Shown here in pieces: positions 1 to 19,965 of a stretch of DNA of 23,512 bases. The notes beneath the pieces are model-generated. The model saw nothing but the letters and a program-made list of their open reading frames with translations, ran no database searches and was not told the origin of the DNA. Position numbers and translations under genes: made by a program. Within the stretch, counting starts at the first letter, position 1, and the number at the start of each line of letters is the position of its first letter. The DNA is taken from positions 1 through 23,512 of IMG/VR virus record IMGVR_UViG_3300048126_000088, one strand, 5' to 3'. Source of the stretch: a virus.

Positions 1-174
1 AACGTGATACGCATGTTTTGCGATTTCTAGGTTTGAACCAGTTTCAACACCGTGACAGTTACGGACATACATACCGTATAAGTTTTGAAAGTAAGTGTTC
101 CCTGAAGAAGGAGCTCCGACCATCCAGTGGTCGTGCATTGAACGCATACTTAATTGAGATGCTGGATTACTCAT
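1..174 (-). CDS. Partial phage protein of unknown function (N-terminal 58 residues)
   Basis: The frame opens with ATG at 174 and stays open for 58 codons to the window edge, so only the N-terminus is visible. A GAGG ribosome binding site lies about 10 bases upstream. The visible part begins MSNPASQLSMRSMHDHW and is rich in His, Met and Asn; it has no signal peptide or membrane segment. It sits about 75 bases downstream of a TATAAATA late promoter that directly follows a terminator, so it is probably the first gene of a late transcription unit. I do not recognise the family. The plus-strand frame over the same bases has no ribosome site and is a shadow. Confidence 0.75.
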   Translation of the reverse strand, partial: MSNPASQLSMRSMHDHWMVGAPSSGNTYFQNLYGMYVRNCHGVETGSNLEIAKHAYHV

Positions 175-249: not shown

Positions 250-257
250 TATTTATA
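250..257 (-). promoter_or_regulatory. T4-type late promoter (TATAAATA)
   Basis: The minus strand carries an exact TATAAATA, the -10 element read by the T4 gp55/gp33 late RNA polymerase. Its first bases are the end of the U-tract of the terminator at 254-283. It points at the gene starting at 174. No -35 element is expected for this promoter class. Confidence 0.8.
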
Positions 258-283
258 AAAAAACCGGACGCGAAGTCCAGTTT
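254..283 (-). terminator. Rho-independent terminator of the 4027-to-291 gene block
   Basis: On the minus strand a 9-position stem (AAACTGGAC with GTCCGGTTT, one mismatch) closes a TTCGC loop and is followed by a run of seven T. It lies 8 bases past the stop codon of the 68-aa membrane protein gene. Confidence 0.85.
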
Positions 284-290
284 ATGAGTA

Positions 291-497
291 TTATTTCTGC
301 TCTTCTTTCCAGATAGTCCAGAGTCCGTATAGGACACCTGCGTATGCGACCATACCGATGAGCGATTCAAACAAGATGTAACTACCACAGACTGCGACGA
401 TTACTGTCCCGTCCCATGTAGTACGTTCCCCTAGGCGTTCTTTAAACCACGCCTGTGCTATTGCGACGTATGCCGCTACTTTAGTCATTCCCCACAT
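291..497 (-). CDS. Small membrane protein, 68 aa, unknown function
   Basis: I chose the ATG at 497 (MWGMTKVAAY) because a GGAGA site sits 6 bases upstream; an earlier in-frame start at 533 lies deeper in the previous gene and lacks a site. The protein has a short amphipathic N-terminus, a charged patch with KERLGERTTWDG, then about 30 hydrophobic residues (roughly 28-60) that form one or two membrane passes, and ends WKEEQK. It overlaps the ATP-grasp gene by 13 bases and is the last gene before a terminator. The shape resembles small holin-like marine phage proteins, but no specific family assignment is safe. Confidence 0.75.
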   Translation of the reverse strand: MWGMTKVAAYVAIAQAWFKERLGERTTWDGTVIVAVCGSYILFESLIGMVAYAGVLYGLWTIWKEEQK

Positions 498-1408
498 TGT
501 TGTTCTCCTTTTATGTGACTTGCGAATACCCAAAAATTTTCGTCAGTATTTTTAGTGAAAGACTCTAACCACGAGTCGGCATCACCCATGAAGTCCGAAT
601 ACATACTATGTCGTCCGTTGTGTTCGAACCAATAAACTTTTAAGTCGGATGTGATACACCCCGACACGTTTCCTTCATAATTGCCACCAAGACTTGCCAC
701 GTATTCCAACCAGTCTTCGCATTTCTCTCTGTAGACTTCTTCTTGTTCCGGTGTTAGATCTCTCATGCAGGTCAGATTTCTCCAGTCAGTCTCAGCGCCC
801 AGAATCTTGTAACCCGACACATCACCGTGAATCCCTTTGATCGACGTGATCGTATATGTACCGTTGCAGATTCGATATTGACAATATCCTTCAACCTCAA
901 AATCTACCTCTTTCTCTACGTATGCGGGAGACGCACCTTCTTCGCTGAAAATCATATTCTGATATTCAAGGTCTGCGTCCGGCAAAACCTTCCACGCCTG
1001 ACACCACGTGTCGTGATACTTCGATTTCAGATAGGTTGTGTAAGGAAACCGTTGCATCTCGTTCAGATTGCACTCTAGAATCACTTCTGGGAGTTCGAAT
1101 CCATACTCCCAAGCCTTCTGTCGCGTTTCCCACTTATAAAGTTCGAGACGCGAACTTTCCAACGTGTTTCCAAAATAAGTGTAGTCGTCAGACGGAGACA
1201 GTGTTAGGCCCGCCATGTTACTTACCACAATGTCGGGTTTAAATCTTTCTATCTCTTCCTCTGCCCACGATAGCGCCTTTGGACCACCATAGTATATGTT
1301 GATACCTCCGGCGTGTTGATTAATCAACTTTACGGTGTGACCTTTCTCCTCTAACGCGGGAACGAGACTTTCATACGTCTCTGTCAATGCAAAGAGCAGT
1401 ATCCTCAA
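485..1408 (-). CDS. ATP-grasp (PurD/GARS-like) enzyme
   Basis: This 307-aa protein opens with a Rossmann-like strand (RILLFALTETYESLVPALEEKGH) as in ATP-grasp pre-domains. It then has an ATP-grasp core: YVEKEVDFEVEGYCQYRICNG near residues 163-183 recalls the nucleotide-binding strand pair, and YWFEHNGRHSMYSDF near 260-274 recalls the E-x-N-x-R metal and ATP site of PurD-type ligases. Such enzymes join a carboxylate to an amine or thiol with ATP. The start is TTG at 1408, overlapping the radical SAM stop as TTGA; no nearby ATG would keep the first strand. It lies directly downstream of a radical SAM gene and a glycosyltransferase gene. The substrate is unknown. Confidence 0.7.
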   Translation of the reverse strand: MRILLFALTETYESLVPALEEKGHTVKLINQHAGGINIYYGGPKALSWAEEEIERFKPDIVVSNMAGLTLSPSDDYTYFGNTLESSRLELYKWETRQKAWEYGFELPEVILECNLNEMQRFPYTTYLKSKYHDTWCQAWKVLPDADLEYQNMIFSEEGASPAYVEKEVDFEVEGYCQYRICNGTYTITSIKGIHGDVSGYKILGAETDWRNLTCMRDLTPEQEEVYREKCEDWLEYVASLGGNYEGNVSGCITSDLKVYWFEHNGRHSMYSDFMGDADSWLESFTKNTDENFWVFASHIKGEQQCGE

Positions 1409-2397
1409 GTGTTGTCCCTATAGTCGTTGAGTGTGAAATTTGTTCCATGCATTTTCATGAGGTCACGTTCATGGTTGGTGTATACTAGAACCTCTGGATC
1501 ATCGACTAAAAAATCACATGATTTACAGAAATCTGGGTATTCGCCCGTTCTGTGTTGTTGTCGTAACTCTTCGTATGCCTCACCGAAGAAGATGTCTTCA
1601 ATAGTGTCGTCCTGACAGTGTCCAAGGACCGCTTCGTCATCACGTCCCAGTACCTGACAACAAGGGTGTACAGCACCATGTTTACCGTCAAGACCTCCAG
1701 CACGTATAACAACATCTGGACTAAATGGTCGTCCACAACTCTTCACCTTACCTGTTCTTGCGTTATCACCAATCTCATATGCCCCTGACCAGTTGTGCAT
1801 CTTCCAGATCTCTGTCTTGACGCCCAACTCCTCGACCAACGCTTTGTATTTAGTGAGTTCCTCATCTATTTTTTCGTTGTCCGTGATTAGGTGATAGGTG
1901 GACACTACGCAATCTGCGCCTGTCTCATTTACATAGGAAACCATTTCCTGAATGTTGCGCTTAATATGCGCGTAGTGCCCACCCACAGCGTTGTACATCC
2001 ATTGGGTATAGTCTTGTTCGTCTGACCCAATGAATGAAAATCGGTAGAAGTCCAGTCCCGCATCGACACAGTCGCGCATGTACTGACCTTCCATTTTGAA
2101 TCCGTTTGAGAAGATGAAACACTTCGCTCCATACTTCTTTACTACCTTTATATATTCAGGTAGATTTTTTGCCATCGTCGCTTCACCAGATCCGTCAAGG
2201 TTCACGACACGGACTCCGTGCTTCGCACAGTCTGCGACGTATCCCTCAAACTCATCGAGTTTCATGATGCGACGGAATCCTCTATGACGACCTCCCTCAC
2301 GAAGATCTTGTGGGCACATCGAACACGAGTAGTTACATCCGCCCGCGACCTCGATGACCGCACGGTCTATCGTAAAGGTTTCTCTAGTCATTTCCAT
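1405..2397 (-). CDS. Radical SAM/SPASM-type enzyme
   Basis: Residues 21-28 (CNYSCSMC) are the CxxxCxxC motif that holds the radical SAM 4Fe-4S cluster, and DGSGEAT at 68-74 is the usual SAM-binding glycine motif. The C-terminal third carries Cys221, Cys246, Cys247, Cys261, Cys291 and Cys294 (CKSC), a SPASM-like set for auxiliary clusters. The length of 330 aa fits the family. These enzymes cut SAM to a 5'-deoxyadenosyl radical to modify peptides, sugars or cofactors; the substrate here is unknown. The gene overlaps the upstream glycosyltransferase by 14 bases and the downstream ATP-grasp gene by 4. The ATG at 2391 is an alternative start with no effect on the domains. Confidence 0.9.
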   Translation of the reverse strand: MEMTRETFTIDRAVIEVAGGCNYSCSMCPQDLREGGRHRGFRRIMKLDEFEGYVADCAKHGVRVVNLDGSGEATMAKNLPEYIKVVKKYGAKCFIFSNGFKMEGQYMRDCVDAGLDFYRFSFIGSDEQDYTQWMYNAVGGHYAHIKRNIQEMVSYVNETGADCVVSTYHLITDNEKIDEELTKYKALVEELGVKTEIWKMHNWSGAYEIGDNARTGKVKSCGRPFSPDVVIRAGGLDGKHGAVHPCCQVLGRDDEAVLGHCQDDTIEDIFFGEAYEELRQQHRTGEYPDFCKSCDFLVDDPEVLVYTNHERDLMKMHGTNFTLNDYRDNT

Positions 2398-3265
2398 AAT
2401 ATTGTCTCATTCTATTTTCGTAATCTACTGCTTTATCTTTAGTGTGTCCAAGTAGGGGGCCTATATTAGATAACCACCACCAAGGATTCTTTTTCTCATA
2501 CGACACCGTTGGGTTTATCCGTAACGCATTCGGTGTATGGTATTTAGTCACACCCTCACCAGAGATTACCGCCATCGGTCGTGCAAAGTTCTTTGCGATG
2601 TAGTGCCAGATACCGTCGTAACAGATCACCATACGCGAGGTAGATATTAGGTCCATCGCCTCACGGACGGGTGTTCGATATCCCAACTCATAAACGTTAA
2701 ACCCCATCGTCTTTAGGTCTCTGATCAGACATTCCCAATCCTCGTTGGTGAACTGTCTCTTCCACGTTCGGGGTTTCTCTGCGTTCCAAGTCGGTCTCCA
2801 TATAACCACACGGTTATCAACAATGTTTCTAAACGCGTCCTCACGAAAAATCCAGTCGTTGTCGGGGGCAGTAGATCCGGTCATGTCATTGTAGTAACCG
2901 CTCTCAAACCAAAATCTTGCCTTTTCCATACCATGACTTTTCGCAGCGATACGTTTCTCTCCACTGGGATCGGTAACAATGTCGTCCGCAAACTTCCAGT
3001 GTTTGTATCTACCTTGCGCGTTAAAGATATGATGTATCTCTACGCGTTCTTTCTGGTGGTAGAAGTTATGAATATAATCACATCGCTCGATGATGGTTTC
3101 CGGATCTTCGAAATGGTGCAGGTAGTCCTCACCGTGTTCCCAGTGAAACTCTAGATTTATTTTAGAAACGTTTTGATCTGCGGCATACCTGTGACACGAG
3201 TTCAACGCCCACATGAAATCACCTACGCCGGGCGTTCCTCTCCAAGTCACTAATTCTGAGGCCAT
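2384..3265 (-). CDS. GT-B glycosyltransferase, heptosyltransferase (GT9)-like
   Basis: This 293-aa protein starts with a glycine-rich segment RGTPGVGDFMWALN (residues 9-22), as in the N-terminal half of GT9 enzymes. The second half has VVIWRPTWN, a helix-strand pair ending in FNVYELGYRTP, then LISTSRMVICYDGIWHYIA, the usual donor-site layout of ADP-heptose:LPS heptosyltransferases. It would transfer a sugar from a nucleotide donor. Its ATG overlaps the stop of the holin-like gene as TGATG, and its 3' end overlaps the radical SAM start, so the three are translationally linked. The family call rests on pattern recognition, and donor and acceptor are unknown. Confidence 0.65.
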   Translation of the reverse strand: MASELVTWRGTPGVGDFMWALNSCHRYAADQNVSKINLEFHWEHGEDYLHHFEDPETIIERCDYIHNFYHQKERVEIHHIFNAQGRYKHWKFADDIVTDPSGEKRIAAKSHGMEKARFWFESGYYNDMTGSTAPDNDWIFREDAFRNIVDNRVVIWRPTWNAEKPRTWKRQFTNEDWECLIRDLKTMGFNVYELGYRTPVREAMDLISTSRMVICYDGIWHYIAKNFARPMAVISGEGVTKYHTPNALRINPTVSYEKKNPWWWLSNIGPLLGHTKDKAVDYENRMRQYYGND

Positions 3266-3600
3266 CAGTTCGTCTTAATACTCTTCACTTTACGTGCCGA
3301 TCCTGTTGAAGTATATAGACCAAACCAAGCAGCGCCTGCTCCGACCACCACAGATATAAGACCTGCTTGTGATGCATTTGGTTCAGGTATCGTCATGAAC
3401 CATTGTGTGGTTTCAATGAGTAGGTACAAATAGGTACCAATGAATGCTCGCGGGAAAAGTCGATACGCATCGATTACATCCGCGAACTGTAGTAGAGGTT
3501 CAAAACGAGTCGGTACCACTTCTTTCTGGGTGGTATCGAATTCGACCTCCAGTTCTAGTTTTTTCTTGATAGGTGCTACTACTACTGTTTCTTCTGTCAT
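3265..3600 (-). CDS. Holin-like small membrane protein, 111 aa
   Basis: After a charged N-terminus with a KKKLELEVEFD segment, the protein has two hydrophobic stretches: about residues 52-69 (AFIGTYLYLLIETTQWFM) and 80-97 (GLISVVVGAGAAWFGLYT). These are separated by a short PEPNASQ loop, and the tail is basic. Two passes with a tight turn fit holins or related phage membrane proteins, and the GAGAAWFGLY pattern is familiar to me from marine T4-like phages. It overlaps its neighbours at ATGA (upstream) and TGATG (downstream). The lysozyme is more than 4 kb away, so a role in lysis is only a suggestion. Confidence 0.65.
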   Translation of the reverse strand: MTEETVVVAPIKKKLELEVEFDTTQKEVVPTRFEPLLQFADVIDAYRLFPRAFIGTYLYLLIETTQWFMTIPEPNASQAGLISVVVGAGAAWFGLYTSTGSARKVKSIKTN

Positions 3601-3866
3601 TTGGTGAACCTTTTATTAATCCATTTGTAGGCGGCATATATGGACAATCCATAGAACGCAAGAACACTCATTGGCAGACCGATGTAGATCAACTCCCACG
3701 GATGAAGAAATAACAACTCCCACGAAAGATCTACGATTGCCTGCACATCACTTGTTCTAGAAACATCTGTCATGTCCATAGCGACGTTGTATTCGTCTAC
3801 TATTCCATTCCATGTATCTACGTCCATACAGACCAGATCATCTGGACAGATAAATTCTTCTTCCAT
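3597..3866 (-). CDS. Small membrane protein, 89 aa, unknown function
   Basis: I chose the ATG at 3866 (MEEEFICPDDLVC), which overlaps the preceding stop as TGATG; a GTG three bases upstream is an alternative. The N-terminal half is acidic with two Cys (C7 and C13 of the ATG form). A hydrophobic span near residues 57-78 (ELIYIGLPMSVLAFYGLSIY) is followed by a basic end AAYKWINKRFTK, which fits one membrane pass with a cytoplasmic C-terminus. It is the second of three consecutive small membrane-type genes. I do not recognise the family. Confidence 0.7.
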   Translation of the reverse strand: MEEEFICPDDLVCMDVDTWNGIVDEYNVAMDMTDVSRTSDVQAIVDLSWELLFLHPWELIYIGLPMSVLAFYGLSIYAAYKWINKRFTK

Positions 3867-4027
3867 CACTTAACCTTAAAATCTTTTGGGTCGCCGTTGA
3901 TCAGTTCCTTCGCCTTATCTTCCCAGACGAATGGTAACAGTCCATGCACAAACGACACAAACGCAATCGTCCATGCTCTGTATAAGTGTTCGAAGTAATT
4001 AAGACCTATATCCTTTAGATGTCCCAT
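3866..4027 (-). CDS. DUF6356-like small membrane protein, 53 aa
   Basis: This is a short complete gene with an AAGGTTGA ribosome site a few bases before the ATG at 4027. The protein starts MGHLKDIGLNYFEHLYRAW, continues with a hydrophobic helix TIAFVSFVHGLLPFVW, and has a charged tail. The order G-x-x-Y-x-E-H-x-x-x-A followed by a V-H-x-L-x-P-F helix matches my memory of the DUF6356 family of small bacterial and phage proteins. The stop overlaps the next ATG by one base (TGATG). It is the first gene after the carbamoyltransferase terminator; no clear promoter lies between, so read-through from 5641 is likely. Confidence 0.7.
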   Translation of the reverse strand: MGHLKDIGLNYFEHLYRAWTIAFVSFVHGLLPFVWEDKAKELINGDPKDFKVK

Positions 4028-4043
4028 ATTCAACCTTTATTTT

Positions 4044-4072
4044 TATTAAAATGGGGTGCCCGAAGGCACCCC
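4044..4072 (-). terminator. Rho-independent terminator after the carbamoyltransferase gene
   Basis: A perfect 8-bp GC-rich stem (GGGGTGCC/GGCACCCC) with a TTCG tetraloop on the minus strand is followed by ATTTTAAT. It lies 22 bases past the carbamoyltransferase stop. The T-tract is interrupted, so some read-through into the 53-aa gene is plausible. A second short stem (CCCGA/TCGGG) just upstream could compete. Confidence 0.8.
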
Positions 4073-4094: not shown

Positions 4095-5612
4095 CTAGAA
4101 CACCTTCACCTCATACTTCTGTTCCCACATCTCGGCGTCCAGTTCGTCATTAACCATAGGACGGCCTCGAATGTTGAGAGAGGTGTTCAGGAGCATTGGT
4201 ACTCCTGTCCTGTCGTAGTACTCCTCGATGACCTTACGGAACACCGATTCGCAATTCTTCTTCACGATTTGAACACGTGCAGTTCCATCTACGTGTGTTA
4301 CTGGAGCATAGTCATGTTTTGCCCATGAGGTGAACTGCATATGTTCATTCATTGGTCCGTCGAAGTATTCCTCCGCATATTCCTCTAGGATAGCAGGTGC
4401 GAACGGACGATACTTCTGTCGTCTTTTAATTGTGTTTACAGTGTCTTGTACGTCGTATCTTACATCAGCAATAAGGGAGCGGTTGCCAAGAGCACGAGGA
4501 CCGAACTCAGCCCTTCCACTAGCAATTCCACAATAGCGATGTTCAAGTAAATGATCGACGATACTGCTAGGATTAACATCCCTTTCGATATTATGCCCCG
4601 CATAAGGACTCCATATTAATTTGTCTTTTCCTGTTGCCTTTGCCCACGATCGGGCTGCTGTCCCCAAACCAGACCCCGCGTCGGTCGGAGATACTGCAAT
4701 ATGTACCTCATCAAACAGTTCAAACAATCTGGAGTTGATTACAACGTTCTGTGCACACCCACCAGAATAACATAACTTCTTACCATATTTAGACGCCTCG
4801 CGCATTATACCCATAATTGCATAGTCCGCGAAATCTTGAACCGCACGTGCGACAACTTTGTCTTCTAACGCACTGATTCTTATTTTGAATTCTTCTCTCC
4901 ACTTCTTACGTGCGATCTCGCGAGGTGATGTTTCGATACCAACTGCAATACCCTCTGCGATCTCTGGTGCGATGTCCTCTAGGTCATCATACCAGTTGAT
5001 CAACCACTGCGTCAGTTCGTTGGACTTTTCATCGGTTTCGTGGTATGCGGACAGTCCCATGACGACGTATTCGTCTTCGAGTGGGCGTAGACCTAGTAAC
5101 TTGGTCGCGACTGTGTAGACCAGACCGACCGACTTCGGATAGTGCCACTCTTTGATTAGATTGAACTTGTGGTCCATGATGGTCGCAGTCTGCAACTCAC
5201 CGACACCATCGATCGATACCAAAACGGTATCCTCTGCGGAGTCCCACGGGCGCGTGTAGAACGCTGCCGCACAGTGTGACTCGTGGTGTAAGTGGTTTAC
5301 ATCAAAGTGTTGCGCGTTCGGGATGATCATGCGATTGAAGGTTTCTTCTGCGGTATCTGGACGACCCTTTAGATGTGTAGTGTCTCCTGTGGTGTCGATT
5401 CCTCCACGCATATCAAACTTGAGGGTTTGGTCCTCGTAGAATGATACGTGATCGTCGTCCCTGACCATATCCCATAGTACTTCTGGAAGATGTGGATCGT
5501 TTTTCTTTTTGGAGTAACGTTCTCCGTGAGTTGCGAACTCGACTGTGCCATCTTCATTGATGATCGCGAATCCAGCATCATGATAATATTCACTGTAACC
5601 AACAAATCTCAT
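4095..5612 (-). CDS. NodU/CmcH-family carbamoyltransferase
   Basis: This 505-aa protein transfers a carbamoyl group from carbamoyl phosphate to a hydroxyl, usually on a sugar or antibiotic. Family marks in order are GYSEYYHDAG (5-14), NHLHHESHCAAAFY (106-119) with the metal-binding His cluster, SIDGVGE (133-139), CYSGGCAQNVVINSRL (281-296), SPTDAGSGLG (308-317), GRAEFGPRALGNRS (366-379) and a C-terminal NTSLN (476-480). Together these give the Kae1-like N-domain and the NodU C-domain. At 505 aa it is a little shorter than bacterial relatives, mostly at the C-terminal end. It is a single-gene late unit: a late promoter lies just upstream and a terminator just downstream. Exact substrate unknown. 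Confidence 0.93.
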   Translation of the reverse strand: MRFVGYSEYYHDAGFAIINEDGTVEFATHGERYSKKKNDPHLPEVLWDMVRDDDHVSFYEDQTLKFDMRGGIDTTGDTTHLKGRPDTAEETFNRMIIPNAQHFDVNHLHHESHCAAAFYTRPWDSAEDTVLVSIDGVGELQTATIMDHKFNLIKEWHYPKSVGLVYTVATKLLGLRPLEDEYVVMGLSAYHETDEKSNELTQWLINWYDDLEDIAPEIAEGIAVGIETSPREIARKKWREEFKIRISALEDKVVARAVQDFADYAIMGIMREASKYGKKLCYSGGCAQNVVINSRLFELFDEVHIAVSPTDAGSGLGTAARSWAKATGKDKLIWSPYAGHNIERDVNPSSIVDHLLEHRYCGIASGRAEFGPRALGNRSLIADVRYDVQDTVNTIKRRQKYRPFAPAILEEYAEEYFDGPMNEHMQFTSWAKHDYAPVTHVDGTARVQIVKKNCESVFRKVIEEYYDRTGVPMLLNTSLNIRGRPMVNDELDAEMWEQKYEVKVF

Positions 5613-5640: not shown

Positions 5641-5648
5641 TATTTATA
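5641..5648 (-). promoter_or_regulatory. T4-type late promoter of the carbamoyltransferase gene
   Basis: An exact TATAAATA on the minus strand sits about 30 bases upstream of the ATG at 5612. It overlaps the last base of the T8 tract of the terminator at 5647-5675, the same arrangement as at 250-283. Confidence 0.85.
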
Positions 5649-5675
5649 AAAAAAAGGGGGGTCAAAAGACCCCCC
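5647..5675 (-). terminator. Rho-independent terminator of the HAD-phosphatase operon
   Basis: On the minus strand a perfect 8-bp stem GGGGGGTC/GACCCCCC with a TTTT loop is followed by a run of eight to nine T. It lies about 23 bases past the stop at 5699 and ends the early operon started by the promoter at 6864-6892. Confidence 0.92.
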
Positions 5676-5698: not shown

Positions 5699-6271
5699 TT
5701 AATGTCCTAAAACGTAGTCATATATATCTTTCCAATTACGCATCAATGGGAACTCACTGTCCTGATTGTAACCGTGTGACATCACTACAGACTCTAGACC
5801 TACCTTCGCACCAGCGACGGCATTCTCTACCTTGTCCTCTACCCACAGACATCCTGTGTCGCGGTAGAACTCCAACTTTTCGTCTTTGTCGGCTCCCGTG
5901 TCGAGATAAATGTACTTCTCAAAGACGGTTGGACCAAAAAGTTCTTGGAGATTTTTGGTGCGCAGATGCTGCGCGTATTCGTCGTTACTCAAAGAGGTGA
6001 TTGCGTGAAATATATAACCGTGATCTTCGTGCAACTTACGAACATACTTGATTGCGTCACGGAGTGGTGGGATCTTTCTAACTGTCGCACTCTCGTTGAA
6101 CATACGACAAAGTCGTTGCTTCTCATTTCGTTCCAAACCATACATGATACCTACGTCATACACGTCTGGACTCTTTACCACATAACCGTGGCGTTTCATC
6201 CACTGTTGGAATGCATATCCCCAGTCTAATAAAACACCATCACAATCAACAAGTATTACTTTATCCCTCAC
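5699..6271 (-). CDS. HAD-superfamily phosphatase
   Basis: The 190-aa protein starts at a GTG that overlaps the previous stop as GTGA. It has the HAD motifs in order: LVDCDGVLLDW (7-17) with nucleophile Asp9 and acid Asp11, AITS (90-93) as motif II, a Lys near 129-132 as motif III, and LWVEDKVENA (142-151) as the acidic motif IV. A helical cap insert lies between motifs I and II. The form resembles phage 5'-nucleotidase-like HAD proteins that dephosphorylate nucleotides or sugar phosphates. It is the last gene of an early operon and ends at a strong terminator. The substrate cannot be read from the sequence. Confidence 0.85.
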   Translation of the reverse strand: MRDKVILVDCDGVLLDWGYAFQQWMKRHGYVVKSPDVYDVGIMYGLERNEKQRLCRMFNESATVRKIPPLRDAIKYVRKLHEDHGYIFHAITSLSNDEYAQHLRTKNLQELFGPTVFEKYIYLDTGADKDEKLEFYRDTGCLWVEDKVENAVAGAKVGLESVVMSHGYNQDSEFPLMRNWKDIYDYVLGH

Positions 6272-6914: not shown

Positions 6915-6949
6915 GTATTATTCACAAAAAACTCCTATGGGAATAATGC
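6915..6949 (-). other. Weak AU-rich hairpin at the 3' end of the GT-A gene
   Basis: A 9-bp stem (GCATTATTC with GAATAATAC, one G-U pair) with a 17-base loop surrounds the stop codon of the glycosyltransferase gene. It has no T-tract, so it may be a weak end signal or an mRNA-stabilising structure rather than a full terminator. Confidence 0.3.
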
Positions 6950-7801
6950 TCTAGTGAATTTGGTTTCGTCGCCTTCCCGTTGCGTATTGTATCTACGATC
7001 GTTCCAGTGGCGTACCATGTCTACTTTCCATTCACCACCAGTGTAGTGACAGAAACGTGCTTTTTGGAAGAACTCTTCTTCCGATGCATAGTGGGGGGAG
7101 TCGTTCCACGTCTGGTCGATGGTTTCGATATCGAAATCGTGTTTCATCAACTGCGCGGAGATGTAGGGTTGATCATTCATGATGGACATGTGGAAGTCGC
7201 CCGTGTAACACCATTCTTCCCAAGGTAGGAACAGTTCACGTGCACGTAGACGCGCTTCTTTGGTCCATAGGACCACACCCGTGTTCATGATGGTTATCTT
7301 AGAGGGACGATTGGGCGGCATCACTGGGACGATTGGGCAGTCGTGTAGGGAGAACTTACGACAGAAGTTGTCGTAAGTGTCGCCGGGCCCATCCCATGAA
7401 TTGTAACCACCGCCGGAGGCAGTAACGAAATCTGATTCTAAGACACCATAGACATCCGCACCGGACTCCATGAGATCAAAGATATTTTCGTCAGTGTTGA
7501 CCACGATGTCTGTATCTGCAAACAACAGGTTGTCGTATTGGTCAAAAATAGGGTCTAACCAGACACGTGCGCACTCGTGCAGTAGGGATGTCGAACATCC
7601 GTGACCTTCGGTCGCTACGCGTTTGTTGGAGTAAATGTGTGTTGCATCGATTCGTTCTGCATACTTCTCGAACGACTCGCGTGAGATCTTGGCGACCTCT
7701 TCGTAGAGAGAGGAACGAGAACCGTCCCACCCTTTGATACCACCACGTTTGTCGACTTCCTTAGACGTGATCATATACTGAAAGATTACATTTTTAGACA
7801 T
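6935..7801 (-). CDS. GT-A fold glycosyltransferase (GT8-like)
   Basis: The 288-aa protein has the nucleotide-sugar transferase layout. An N-terminal strand and a helical region lead to NLLFADTDIVVN (91-102) with the metal-binding DxD at 96-98. Next come a small-residue stretch around GGGYNSWDGPGD, then IMNTGVVLWTKEARLRARELF, which is the conserved NxG acceptor-side motif. A later DQPYISAQLM and a terminal CHYTGGEWK with the metal-ligand His complete the pattern. It would move a sugar from a UDP-type donor. The start overlaps the lysozyme stop by 8 bases, so it is co-expressed late. Acceptor unknown; virion or host-surface glycan is a guess. Confidence 0.8.
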   Translation of the reverse strand: MSKNVIFQYMITSKEVDKRGGIKGWDGSRSSLYEEVAKISRESFEKYAERIDATHIYSNKRVATEGHGCSTSLLHECARVWLDPIFDQYDNLLFADTDIVVNTDENIFDLMESGADVYGVLESDFVTASGGGYNSWDGPGDTYDNFCRKFSLHDCPIVPVMPPNRPSKITIMNTGVVLWTKEARLRARELFLPWEEWCYTGDFHMSIMNDQPYISAQLMKHDFDIETIDQTWNDSPHYASEEEFFQKARFCHYTGGEWKVDMVRHWNDRRYNTQREGDETKFTRALFP

Positions 7802-8309
7802 TCTCTAACCTTGTCATAAGTCGTTCGGCACGGTTGCTTACTTGACGATACCATCTCGAATCGCGACCTTCAACTGCCGCATTCTTATAGTCACCACGTT
7901 CTAGGTGACCGTTCATTTTCTTAAACTTACTTAGTCTTGGTCTACCAAGGTTAAACATCATGTTGACCAAGATCTCTTTGACCTCGCCTGGAAAACAAGA
8001 CCACATGTGTCCGTATAACACACCACACTCTCGCAAGGCGATGTCGAGATCTGATTCGAAGACCTGTGCAACCCTTTCTGGGGAAACTTTCGTTCCGACT
8101 GGAGCGCCGTACTCGCCGTCACTTTTCGTGATGAGATGCCCAACACCGAACGTGGGATAGTTGAGATGGTCGAGGTAAATCTCATAAACAACTCCTTCAT
8201 CGGTTTTTAACTGTTCAAATACTGCCTGTCTATTCATTTCAAAAACAACTGCGTTTGATTTACCGATGGGCACTATCTTATCTACAAACTTCGCCCACAG
8301 CGAACGCAT
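7794..8309 (-). CDS. e: T4-type lysozyme (endolysin, GH24)
   Basis: This 171-aa muramidase cuts the MurNAc-GlcNAc bond of peptidoglycan at lysis. The T4 lysozyme catalytic set is intact: Glu38 in TDEG, Asp47 in YLDH and Thr53 in PTFGVGHL, at the same spacing as T4 Glu11/Asp20/Thr26. The C-terminal SRWYRQVSNRAERLMTRL matches the T4 SRWYNQTPNRAKRV region. An N-terminal extension of about 24 residues precedes the T4 start; the chosen start has an AGGAGAGA site and is preferred to the internal Met25. The extension is not a clear signal peptide. Small membrane proteins lie just upstream, as expected for a lysis region. Confidence 0.93.
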   Translation of the reverse strand: MRSLWAKFVDKIVPIGKSNAVVFEMNRQAVFEQLKTDEGVVYEIYLDHLNYPTFGVGHLITKSDGEYGAPVGTKVSPERVAQVFESDLDIALRECGVLYGHMWSCFPGEVKEILVNMMFNLGRPRLSKFKKMNGHLERGDYKNAAVEGRDSRWYRQVSNRAERLMTRLENV

Positions 8310-15021: not shown

Positions 15022-17013
15022 TTAACCTTCACAGGCACGACATTCATCGCCTGATTCGGTCTCGTTGTAATCACTTTCCAAGTGACTCATTAGGTCTTCA
15101 TATCCACCCACATATCGACCTTCGATGTAAATCTGTGGGACAGTTTTGACCTTTCGCCCAGTTACTTCTGCAGCGGTTTTACCGATCTCTTCCAAATCGA
15201 TATAGTCAAACGGCATACCGCGCAGTGACAACTCTTCTGTCGCCAACTTACACCACGGACAGTTACTCTTGCCGTAGATGATGGTGCGGTTATCGTCTTC
15301 GAGTGCTACCCGTTCGACTTTGTCCGAAACCGTCTCTGCCCTTGACTTGGCTTCGGTACGTAGATAATAAAGACCTTTTAGTCCTTGTCTCCACGCGTTG
15401 AAGTGCACCTTGTTGACATATCTTTTCGGCGCACCGGATGGGAAGAACAAATTAACCGACTGACCCTGACAGATATATTTTTGTCGATCAGCGGCATGTG
15501 TTATTACCCAATTCTGGTCTAGTTCCTGAGCGGTCTTATATACCGCCTTCTCTCCTTCGTTAAGGAATGGTAGGTGTTGCACCGACCCTTTTTTAGTAAT
15601 GATACTAGACCATGTAGATTCGTTGTTATGACCCTTATCCTCTAGGAGTTTCTCTAGGTGCGCATTCTTCACAAGGAAGGATCCCGCACGTGTACGATGC
15701 GTGTACGCACATGCCTTGAGGGGTTCAATAGATGGGGATGTTGATAGTATTACGCCCGATGATGCATTAGGCGCAATCGCTAAAAGGTGTGAGTTTCTTC
15801 TTCCGGTATGTTCACCGTCGATATATTCACCGCGTTCTTTTGCCAGTAGTTTTGTTTCAGCGATAGCGTCGTCTGAGATGTGTTGGAACACCACCTCATT
15901 GATCTCTCTAGCCTTGTCAGATTCCCAAGCAACAGAGTGTTTTTGTAGGAGTGAGTGGAATCCCATCGCTCCCAATCCAATACTTCTTTCTCTCTCTGCC
16001 GAATAACGAGCGCGGGAAATACTATCGGGCGCGTGATCGATGAAATATTGGAGAACGTTATCCAACATACGAACAATATCACGCACGATATTAGTGTCTT
16101 TCCATTCATCATAGTACTCTAAGTTTAAAGAAGACAAACAACAGACGGCAGTGCGGTCTTCGCTTGTCGGTAAGTGAATTTCATTACATAAGTTCGAACC
16201 ATGAATGCGTAGTCCCTTCTCCTTGAGAGCCATCGGTAGACCACGATTCGCAGTGTCGATAAAATTCAGGTAAGGTTCACCTGTACGGAAACGAATCTCA
16301 AGAATGCGTTCCCATAGTTTTCGGGCATTGACTGTGTCCTTGACCGCACCATCCTTCGGATCACGTAGATCGAAGTCAGTGTTGTTGATGACTGCCGCCA
16401 TGAACTCATCGGAGATGTTGATCGCATTGTGGATGTTCAACGCTTTACGTTGTACGTCTCCCGTAGGAATTCGAATGTTTATGAACTCAATAATGTCTGG
16501 GTGTGACACATCCAGATAAGCCGCGTAAGACCCTTTACGCGTCTTCCCCTGACGGTATGCAATCATGTCCGCATCGACCGTATGCATAAAAGGAATAGGG
16601 CCAGGCGCTATGTCTGAGACCGTCCGAACATTACCCCAGTGTCCTCCGACACCACCACCCATGACAGACAACCATCTTAGTTCGGATGAGTGTTCAATCA
16701 ATCCTTCGAGTGTGTCTGGAACATAGGTAAGAAAACATGAGATAGGCAGACCTTTGCCTTTGGTCTCACCGTTTTTTGGAGCATTAGATAGTACAGGAGA
16801 TGCGAACATGAACCACTTTTTACTCACATACTCGTACAACCTTTCTGCTAGTTTTTCGTCTAACTCACCTTGAAAGACCGCCCATGCATTTGATGCTCTC
16901 ATGTAAGCGTCTTGTGGAGAGGTCTCATCTTCCATCATATAGAAGTCTTTCAACATACCCACAGCATAATCTTTCAACAGACGATCACGATCATATTTAA
17001 CATCTATTGTCAT
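15022..17013 (-). CDS. nrdA: Ribonucleotide reductase alpha subunit with a built-in glutaredoxin domain
   Basis: This 663-aa protein holds the class Ia catalytic subunit in residues 1 to about 560. The active-site cysteines are present: Cys93 in LPISCFL, NLCNE at 274-278 with Cys276 and Glu278, and Cys291 in AVCCLSSLN; Tyr549-Tyr550 are the radical-path pair. The N-terminal ATP cone is missing, so dATP inhibition through that site is not expected. Residues 576-646 form a glutaredoxin domain with CPWC (585-588), TVP (624-626) and GGYED (636-640). After it comes ECRACEG, the CxxC tail that normally ends NrdA. The reductant is therefore placed between core and tail. It is the first gene after a strong promoter at 17050-17078. 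Confidence 0.96.
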   Translation of the reverse strand: MTIDVKYDRDRLLKDYAVGMLKDFYMMEDETSPQDAYMRASNAWAVFQGELDEKLAERLYEYVSKKWFMFASPVLSNAPKNGETKGKGLPISCFLTYVPDTLEGLIEHSSELRWLSVMGGGVGGHWGNVRTVSDIAPGPIPFMHTVDADMIAYRQGKTRKGSYAAYLDVSHPDIIEFINIRIPTGDVQRKALNIHNAINISDEFMAAVINNTDFDLRDPKDGAVKDTVNARKLWERILEIRFRTGEPYLNFIDTANRGLPMALKEKGLRIHGSNLCNEIHLPTSEDRTAVCCLSSLNLEYYDEWKDTNIVRDIVRMLDNVLQYFIDHAPDSISRARYSAERERSIGLGAMGFHSLLQKHSVAWESDKAREINEVVFQHISDDAIAETKLLAKERGEYIDGEHTGRRNSHLLAIAPNASSGVILSTSPSIEPLKACAYTHRTRAGSFLVKNAHLEKLLEDKGHNNESTWSSIITKKGSVQHLPFLNEGEKAVYKTAQELDQNWVITHAADRQKYICQGQSVNLFFPSGAPKRYVNKVHFNAWRQGLKGLYYLRTEAKSRAETVSDKVERVALEDDNRTIIYGKSNCPWCKLATEELSLRGMPFDYIDLEEIGKTAAEVTGRKVKTVPQIYIEGRYVGGYEDLMSHLESDYNETESGDECRACEG

Positions 17014-18672: not shown

Positions 18673-19028
18673 CGGACACCTCTTAACTTTTCTACTACGT
18701 ATTTATCCATTTCAATTCCCGTAAGATCAGTATTGTGTATGGCTCGAAGAAAAATAAGGAAAGGTTTTAAGGCAGACCACTGTTCAAGTGGTATTTTGTG
18801 TGCAAGAATTTCAACTCCGGCCTCGTGACCGAACACATTAAAGATCACAATGAGGTGATTTAAGATGAGACGTTCTGCAAGATCGTTGTTCTGGTAGTAT
18901 CGATTGACCAGTCTCTTGACGTATTTAAAACGTTTTATATCATCAAAGAACTCATCTCCATCAATACATGAAGGATTGTAATAATTCTTTGCAGCGTATA
19001 TTACGATGTTCTTGCTATTTAACTTCAT
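18660..19028 (-). CDS. Conserved T4-like phage protein, 122 aa, helical
   Basis: The start at 19028 overlaps the glycosyltransferase stop by 14 bases. The protein has YAAKNYYNPSCIDGDEFFDD, KRFKYVKRLVNRYYQNNDL and AERLILNHLIVIFNVFGHEA in sequence, a pattern that recurs in marine T4-like phages, and is probably all helical. Its function is unknown. It is co-transcribed with the 198-aa and 197-aa proteins that also belong to this recurring gene group. Confidence 0.75.
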   Translation of the reverse strand: MKLNSKNIVIYAAKNYYNPSCIDGDEFFDDIKRFKYVKRLVNRYYQNNDLAERLILNHLIVIFNVFGHEAGVEILAHKIPLEQWSALKPFLIFLRAIHNTDLTGIEMDKYVVEKLRGVRWES

Positions 19029-19965
19029 AGTATGGTGGTATCAACTCTGGTAGTTGGTATTTTTCGGGGTACATGTCCGGTTTGATCTTATTTAGTTGTT
19101 CTAGTAACAACTCTCTCCAATCATAATCGACCTCATCGTTGCGTGTTGTACTCTGCATATCTTGCATGTAGAGGTATGTGTATCTAGGTCTCTCGTTATG
19201 TACTCGCATGTCCAACTCACCGTCGAATGCCAGTTTCTTCAGTTTGTAGTATTGGACCTGATCCTCACCCACGACAATCGCGGGATCGTAGTCCATCATC
19301 TCTGCCGCCTTGCGCGAGAAGAATACCATTCGGTTCAGAGAGTTTCCTCTGTCGTTGTATCGGTGACACCAGTCCGTCAGTTCCTCTGCGCAGACCGCCC
19401 AATAGTGACGTTTGTCAGCATCAATATGTGGATGGTGTCTCTCGTAGTATCTGATCTTACTCTCCACCCCATTGTTACTACCCGGCTTCTTCGCGGACTC
19501 ATATCTCCACTTGGGGACATATTTCTTGGGGAAGTAGATGAAGTCTTCGGAACGAGAGTCCGGTCTCGCATTTAGAATCTTCAACAGACCCTCATCCCAT
19601 CGGGAGAAAGATATCTGGTTGTAGAGACAGATCACGTCGGGTGCGTCTGTATCGACGACTGCGCGGTAGAAGTTCTTTCCATAAGGCGTAATGAGATCAT
19701 CACCGTCCACGTGGACCATGTAATCGTGTTTGCTCTCTAGGAATATTTTGAGGACTGCGTTCTTACCCGTTGCGGGTGTGCCGTCGGAGTCGGTGGCGAA
19801 CCACTCGATCTTGTTCCTTTCGCAGTATCCTATCACCTCATACTCGTATTCAGAGTCTTGGGTGTTAATAACGACCGTGGTTTGGTCTTTAGATAGGGTG
19901 TCGAATTGACGAATAAGCGTATCGATATCACTACTAGTCAATACGTAGAATCTCAGACTTGACAT
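19015..19965 (-). CDS. GT-A fold glycosyltransferase (GT2-like)
   Basis: The 316-aa protein has the GT2 layout in its N-terminal half: a first strand (LRFYVLTSSDIDTLIRQFD), a middle strand VVINTQ, EVIGYCERNKIEWFATDS, and MVHVDGDDLITPYG with the DxD-type metal site at 87-90. The second half contains ELTDWCHRYNDRG and VVGEDQVQYYKL, where the Glu-Asp could be the catalytic base region. It would transfer a sugar from a nucleotide donor. Its position in a virion and structural gene block hints at glycosylation of a virion part, but the acceptor is unknown. Confidence 0.8.
   Translation of the reverse strand: MSSLRFYVLTSSDIDTLIRQFDTLSKDQTTVVINTQDSEYEYEVIGYCERNKIEWFATDSDGTPATGKNAVLKIFLESKHDYMVHVDGDDLITPYGKNFYRAVVDTDAPDVICLYNQISFSRWDEGLLKILNARPDSRSEDFIYFPKKYVPKWRYESAKKPGSNNGVESKIRYYERHHPHIDADKRHYWAVCAEELTDWCHRYNDRGNSLNRMVFFSRKAAEMMDYDPAIVVGEDQVQYYKLKKLAFDGELDMRVHNERPRYTYLYMQDMQSTTRNDEVDYDWRELLLEQLNKIKPDMYPEKYQLPELIPPYYEVK

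Follow-up and report, generated by a model that had tools for sequence, protein, structure and literature searches.

A glycosyltransferase gene and a Twitch-type radical SAM gene form a conserved pair within a putative late glycan locus of uncultured T4-like phages

Introduction

Surface-glycan cassettes with GT8 glycosyltransferase, carbamoyltransferase and even radical S-adenosylmethionine (SAM) genes are already known from T4-like marine phages. Examples are the lipopolysaccharide (LPS) clusters of the cyanophages P-SSM2 and S-SSM7 and the hypervariable region of pelagimyophages, in which GT8 genes have been interpreted as modifying the host O-chain and radical SAM cassettes lie beside them (PMC7029224). 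Here, we describe a related locus on the minus strand of the virus record IMGVR_UViG_3300048126_000088 (IMG/VR; positions 1 to 23,512, hereafter the window), a 23.5-kb record of an uncultured virus related to T4-like Kyanoviridae. Its most conserved element is a pair of genes for a GT-B-fold glycosyltransferase and a radical SAM enzyme, which in the window is followed by a gene for a putative ATP-grasp protein. The locus shares with the described cassettes a marine T4-like background, glycosyltransferases, a Nol-like carbamoyltransferase, a UDP-glucose dehydrogenase, in some cases radical SAM genes, and a presumed purpose. In contrast to them, it appears as a fixed late operon inside the lysis module, and its carbamoyltransferase is at most about 39% identical to theirs. 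Neither this GT-B nor this radical SAM gene occurs in GenBank phage records, with the single exception of 'Phage C48C1' (OQ984149, complete), beyond which the nearest phage homologue of the carbamoyltransferase is 38.7% identical.

A further relative is the metavirome carbamoyltransferase acting on 5-hydroxymethylcytosine (5hmC; eLife 2021, PMC8670742), which belongs to the same superfamily and is likewise found in phages, but no pyrimidine hydroxymethylase was found in 12 phage records carrying our locus. No description of a fixed pair of GT-B and Twitch radical SAM genes was found in the literature searched. A preliminary description of the window had treated the radical SAM, ATP-grasp and GT-B genes as one linked unit in a possible uncharacterised modification pathway, and the comparative analysis presented here retains part of that proposal.

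Results

The GT-B and radical SAM genes are inseparable where contigs allow

In the window, the gene for the GT-B glycosyltransferase (2384..3265, minus strand; 293 amino acids [aa]) overlaps that for the radical SAM enzyme (1405..2397, minus strand; 330 aa) by 14 bases, and the latter overlaps the ATP-grasp gene (485..1408, minus strand; 307 aa, TTG start) by 4 bases. Overlaps of 1 to 14 bases had been given for this trio, of which the 1-base overlap belongs instead to GT-B and the 111-aa open reading frame (ORF) upstream of it. Relatives of the radical SAM protein were taken from IMG/VR in two overlapping scans that yielded 323 and 335 candidates, and neighbourhood counts out of 82 refer to the first 82 loci from this search. 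Starting from the radical SAM gene, GT-B was present in 81 of 82 loci, the exception being a contig that begins inside the radical SAM gene. Starting from GT-B, a radical SAM gene was adjacent in 79 of 80 loci (in two of the 79 across a gap of about 210 bases), and the one exception ends 2 bases past GT-B. Wherever the gene calls place the two side by side, they overlap, most commonly by exactly 14 bases (54/80). A methyltransferase gene is inserted between them in locus L086.

The ATP-grasp gene behaves differently. It is present in 11 of the 82 loci and missing from 71, and it occupies either of two sites, lying upstream of GT-B in L039, L040 and L070. It is also missing from L005, where the radical SAM protein shares 99% identity with the one in the window. 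When the ATP-grasp family itself was searched for, ten contigs were recovered, in all of which it adjoins the GT-B/radical SAM pair. Because few loci carry it, at two positions, with absence from L005 and always beside the pair, the ATP-grasp gene is an accessory that is optional yet specific. The proposed trio is therefore not a unit: the check for co-occurrence in other genomes separates the ATP-grasp gene from the other two, whereas the linkage of GT-B and radical SAM genes stands in both search directions. The earlier suggestion of an amino-acid-like group on the glycan loses ground as well, because it rests on a gene that most loci lack.

The radical SAM enzyme carries a predicted Twitch domain

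The radical SAM protein matched Pfam Radical_SAM (PF04055, E 1.6e-12, score 48 against a cut-off of 29.5) and SPASM (E 6e-8), a model that also matches Twitch domains. The superfamily motif CxxxCxxC (C21/C25/C28) is invariant among 24 sequences, as are C221, C246, C247, C291 and C294. SPASM domains proper are defined by the seven-cysteine motif CX9-15GX4C-gap-CX2CX5CX3C-gap-C and hold two clusters (PMC6231123); the phage proteins have five invariant C-terminal cysteines and no CX2CX5CX3C. Instead, C221, C246 or C247, C291 and C294 would fit one predicted four-cysteine cluster as in BtrN, a Twitch radical SAM dehydrogenase of butirosin biosynthesis that oxidises an aminocyclitol alcohol. The C-terminal auxiliary domain is thus predicted to be of the single-cluster Twitch (truncated SPASM) type, and of the original radical SAM/SPASM label the first half stands and the second gives way to the shorter domain. 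The likeness to BtrN comprises the CxxxCxxC core and the cysteine pattern for one auxiliary cluster; the profile similarity is distant, being best in the Twitch region (E 9e-5), and the phage enzyme has an extra invariant cysteine beside C246.

Of the set, the radical SAM protein changes most slowly, with a mean column identity of 79% compared to 53% for GT-B. The core genes compared are all under purifying selection: where synonymous divergence (dS) was not saturated, the ratio of nonsynonymous to synonymous divergence (dN/dS) was 0.02-0.05 for the radical SAM gene, 0.07-0.12 for GT-B and 0.08 for the ATP-grasp gene.

The GT-B protein is GT9-like in its predicted fold

The GT-B protein had no Pfam hit of its own and no hit to a curated hidden Markov model (HMM). 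An AlphaFold2 model, with an alignment built from the window and IMG/VR sequences only, reached a mean predicted local distance difference test (pLDDT) score of 88.8. Foldseek searches of the PDB with this model returned TibC (E 2e-5, prob 1.00), WaaF (1psw, 5.5e-4) and WaaC (7.4e-4), and ranks 1-19 were all TibC, WaaF or WaaC (prob 0.99-1.00), making GT9 enzymes the closest GT-B folds. We conclude from the model that the protein has a GT9-like fold of the heptosyltransferase superfamily. Two motifs are invariant, GxGD (residues 13-16) and YDGxW(H/Q) (216-221). The former lies near the N-terminus, a region that in WaaC carries the catalytic aspartate, and the D-G-x-W-H of the latter resembles the GT9 motif D-[ST]-G-x-x-H. 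TibC, WaaF and WaaC (GT9, BAHT) differ from the phage protein in that identity is 10-15% with a template modelling (TM) score of about 0.47, and the phage donor is not necessarily ADP-heptose. When the epimerase, dehydrogenase and 'cytidyltransferase' of C48C1 were compared with NCBIfam for ADP-heptose biosynthesis, the epimerase matched GalE best, below cut-offs.

Remaining members of the core and the ATP-grasp protein

As originally noted, genes for a carbamoyltransferase (4095..5612), a haloacid dehalogenase (HAD) phosphatase (5699..6271) and a GT-A glycosyltransferase (6935..7801) lie nearby, all on the minus strand. The carbamoyltransferase matched Carbam_trans_C (E 4e-44) and Carbam_trans_N (1e-27) and conserves GPRALGNRS, placing it in the NodU/TobZ-type O-carbamoyltransferase family. 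Its closest PDB matches were GdmN (E 5e-41), novobiocin carbamoyltransferase and TobZ, and homology to these enzymes and NodU spans most of its length, including catalytic motifs. The HAD phosphatase (NT5C-like, phrog_420) has invariant DxDGV, S93, K129 and E145-D146. Glyco_transf_8 matched 20 of 21 GT-A members (best E 1.5e-5), with DxD (96-98) and HYTGGxxK (252-259) invariant, which points to a GT8-like enzyme. Across the loci, GT-A was found in 71/82, HAD in 70/82 and the carbamoyltransferase in 69/82. By these sequence and fold matches the conserved core consists of a GT8-like GT-A, a HAD phosphatase, an O-carbamoyltransferase, the GT9-like GT-B and the Twitch radical SAM enzyme.

For the accessory, putative ATP-grasp protein, no HMM hit was obtained and the structural model was poor (pLDDT 59), and all 50 Foldseek PDB matches listed were ATP-grasp enzymes (best E 3.4e-7, prob 1.00); K140, E165-K166, E245, E262, N264 and R266 are invariant among five sequences. 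Sequence-only PDB searches with the GT-B, GT-A, HAD and ATP-grasp proteins gave nothing useful. Elsewhere in the window, a 316-aa ORF at 19015-19965 resembles another GT-A (DxD-like motif) and matched no family model.

Late promoters bound a probable transcription unit larger than the trio

Four exact T4-type late promoters (TATAAATA) occur in the window compared to 0.7 expected, all on the coding (minus) strand, at 257-250, 5648-5641, 9736-9729 and 21341-21334. At least two of them directly follow an intrinsic terminator, forming a compact terminator/late-promoter junction. The promoter at 5641..5648, behind which the carbamoyltransferase is the first gene, immediately follows a strong terminator (GGGGGGTC-TTTT-GACCCCCC-T8, 5656..5675, minus strand) that ends the upstream unit containing the HAD gene. 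The second junction (250..283, minus strand; terminator 283-261, promoter 257-250) marks the operon end and precedes a sulfotransferase-like gene, the first of the next, variable unit. Across loci, 26 of 49 have the exact late motif in the 120 nt before the carbamoyltransferase, mostly at 33-41 nt (background 1.8%), and 25 of 25 have it in front of the sulfotransferase-like gene. No exact late motif was found in the 120 nt upstream of GT-B (0/54 loci), the radical SAM gene (0/55) or the ATP-grasp gene (0/6). Since late promoters stand at its ends and none stands before these three genes, the transcription unit most likely runs from the carbamoyltransferase through a 68-aa ORF, is made late and is larger than the trio. 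A possible internal terminator (4053..4072, minus strand) between the carbamoyltransferase and a DUF6356-family ORF may, in the window, lower how strongly the distal genes are expressed; many relatives have these two ORFs a few bases apart, with no space for it.

Genes outside the locus tie it to nucleotide-sugar metabolism

In each of the ten long locus records there is a single NAD-dependent epimerase gene and a single UDP-glucose/GDP-mannose dehydrogenase gene, adjacent by coordinates in nine. Among ten control phages (eight marine T4-like, one Sinorhizobium phage and T4), only Bellamy has both (Fisher p 1.2e-4, a value in which independence is overstated, as the records are related). This co-occurrence ties the locus to nucleotide-sugar metabolism. 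C48C1 also encodes a UDP-galactopyranose mutase, and the variable genes downstream of the locus include GT25, GT8-like, sulfotransferase and methyltransferase genes.

Architecture, small membrane proteins and distribution

The minus-strand order is endolysin, GT-A, HAD, carbamoyltransferase, three small putative membrane proteins, GT-B, radical SAM, ATP-grasp, a further small membrane protein and the sulfotransferase-like gene. Between the carbamoyltransferase and GT-B lie a small DUF6356-family membrane protein (3866..4033; 53-55 aa; PF19883 E 3e-6 in the L002 copy), a 90-aa putative membrane protein (3597..3869) and the 111-aa ORF o111 (3265..3600), also a putative membrane protein by the hydrophobic segments in its sequence, all on the minus strand. 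In another clade o111 is swapped for c29, which is without homology to it (hhalign prob 2%). The last gene of the operon encodes the 68-aa putative membrane protein (291..497, minus strand; ATG start with AGGAGAACAACA in front). The start of the sulfotransferase-like gene occupies 1..174 (minus strand; 239 aa in L002); its family matched family c9 (hhalign prob 100%), which in turn matches Sulfotransfer_3 (E 1.8e-7). The locus sits between a lysozyme-type endolysin upstream (7794..8309, minus strand) and a three-transmembrane (3TM) holin-like gene, c14, downstream. In L048, L050, L057, L061, L062 and L067 a peptidase M15 endolysin takes the same position as the lysozyme-type enzyme.

No psbA was found in 10 locus records, and the locus phages are therefore probably not cyanophages. 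That the radical SAM gene came from a cellular genome was considered and rejected: the only hits of at least 70% identity in genome collections were L086 and L087, both in a phage neighbourhood, and all others were at or below 32%. These two (JAAXIF010000028, in a Sphingobacteriales metagenome-assembled genome [MAG], and JABJFP010000319, in a Euryarchaeota MAG) are probably mis-binned phage contigs. On the Magnetococcales contig holding the nearest cellular relative inspected, the neighbours are Gfo/Idh/MocA, SDR, TylF-like methyltransferase and B12-binding radical SAM genes.

Two further features of these genomes were seen. The ribonucleotide reductase large subunit of the window (15022-17013) has an apparent C-terminal glutaredoxin-like extension (CPWC), and L085 encodes at 15154-16413 (C48C1 65153-66415) a DUF285/PARCEL repeat protein, of a kind whose model derives from surface proteins of Mycoplasma and Listeria, here in a marine phage.

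Discussion

We consider it likely that the trio forms part of a phage-encoded late glycan pathway. To that extent the preliminary proposal of an uncharacterised modification pathway with a sugar theme and carbamoyl transfer is supported. The genes around the Magnetococcales relative also speak for a glycan pathway. As acceptor we prefer a host envelope glycan (LPS or similar) over a virion protein, a preference held at not quite even confidence. More tentatively still, a dedicated Twitch radical SAM enzyme, obligately paired with the GT9-like GT-B, may act on a C-H bond of a sugar, or of a glycan that is being built, to yield a carbamoylated, radical-tailored sugar on the envelope or virion late in infection. 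In such a pathway, the phage would make a UDP-uronic acid or an epimer, and the GT8-like and GT9-like glycosyltransferases would transfer sugars onto the acceptor. The radical SAM enzyme might oxidise, epimerise or otherwise activate an unreactive sugar C-H, with a BtrN-like reaction as nearest precedent, and the carbamoyltransferase would cap a hydroxyl. ATP-grasp, if present, could add a further carboxylate/amine linkage, and the downstream GT25, GT8, sulfotransferase and methyltransferase genes may supply strain-specific decoration. Late remodelling of the host envelope glycan might then block superinfection or re-adsorption of progeny.

Several observations weigh against this proposal. There are clades with the GT-B/radical SAM pair and without the GT-A/HAD/carbamoyltransferase group (L058, L068 and many of L102-L127), and in L112, a record of such a clade, the epimerase and dehydrogenase lie apart. 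The GT9 assignment is made at the level of fold (TM about 0.47), with the Pfam GT9 model PF01075 touching only 3 of 29 GT-B members (best E 0.078, none above cut-off), and the best fold match, TibC, is a protein glycosyltransferase, which leaves both envelope and virion in play. Finally, the function of radical SAM enzymes in the Twitch/SPASM subfamily is not readable from sequence similarity (PMC6231123); because function does not track sequence clusters there, a BtrN-like reaction can serve as a lead but does not amount to an assignment. Within the clade lacking the carbamoyltransferase group, L058, L059, L068 and L069 carry downstream a second, different radical SAM gene (c105), a methyltransferase (c106) and a HAD-nucleotidyltransferase fusion (c50).

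The strongest alternative, which we regard as doubtful, is that the glycan is placed on a phage structural protein, with GT-B glycosylating the protein as TibC does and the sugar, once attached, being tailored by radical chemistry and carbamoylation. The top fold matches of GT-B are indeed chains of TibC, a protein heptosyltransferase (PMC4358343), and the late promoter before the operon gives a timing that matches virion assembly. However, the locus lies in the lysis module and not in the structural block, small membrane proteins are interleaved with its enzymes, and the partner families GT8 and GT25 are usually linked to LPS. It is also conceivable, though improbable, that separate auxiliary functions merely share a late operon, the product of the radical SAM enzyme being a cofactor or small molecule with no connection to the glycosyltransferases. 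Relatives of the HAD gene are found in 277 phage records, almost all of which lack the other genes, and carbamoyltransferase relatives stand without them in cyanophages as well, but GT-B and radical SAM genes are never apart where the contig allows, overlap where adjacent, and are accompanied by a UDP-sugar dehydrogenase and an epimerase.

Tailoring of a ribosomal peptide by the radical SAM and ATP-grasp enzymes, as in pathways for ribosomally synthesized and post-translationally modified peptides (RiPPs), had been raised at the outset, since the two are known together from peptide pathways. The fold matches listed for the ATP-grasp protein include MdnC, a peptide macrocyclase, and SkfB is a Twitch enzyme able to act on peptides (PMC6231123). 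Nevertheless, we judge a RiPP pathway very unlikely because no conserved precursor was found beside the radical SAM gene among small ORFs of at least 45 aa compared across clades (o111, c29 and c104 are mutually unrelated), which upholds the initial remark that none was evident. The ATP-grasp gene is present in just 11 of the 82 loci, the fixed partner is a glycosyltransferase, and the Twitch-type domain with BtrN-like cysteines also speaks against peptide tailoring. Least likely of all is hypermodification of 5-hydroxymethylpyrimidines in phage DNA by the carbamoyltransferase and glycosyltransferases: phages do glycosylate DNA, and 5hmC can be a substrate of phage carbamoyltransferases with this fold, but those with glycosyltransferase genes beside them stemmed from contigs that were unmodified (PMC8670742), expression is from a late promoter, and no thymidylate synthase/dCMP hydroxymethylase homologue was found in 12 locus records (only C48C1 being complete, so that absence is weaker in the others) by a test that detected T4 td and gene 42 as well as phiM12.

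The preferred reading of a late glycan pathway has a bearing on how such phage genes are seen. The usual picture of phage glycan genes is one of loose and variable islands; here, in hundreds of contigs from uncultured viruses, a radical SAM gene stays bound to a single glycosyltransferase gene. This fixed link to GT-B, together with a rate of change below that of the neighbouring genes, suggests that the reaction of the radical SAM enzyme is essential for the phages, and the pairing predicts that the product of one enzyme is the substrate of the other. Should its substrate indeed be a sugar, the radical SAM enzyme would count as a radical sugar enzyme dedicated to a virus, and might lead to a surface or virion modification not seen before.

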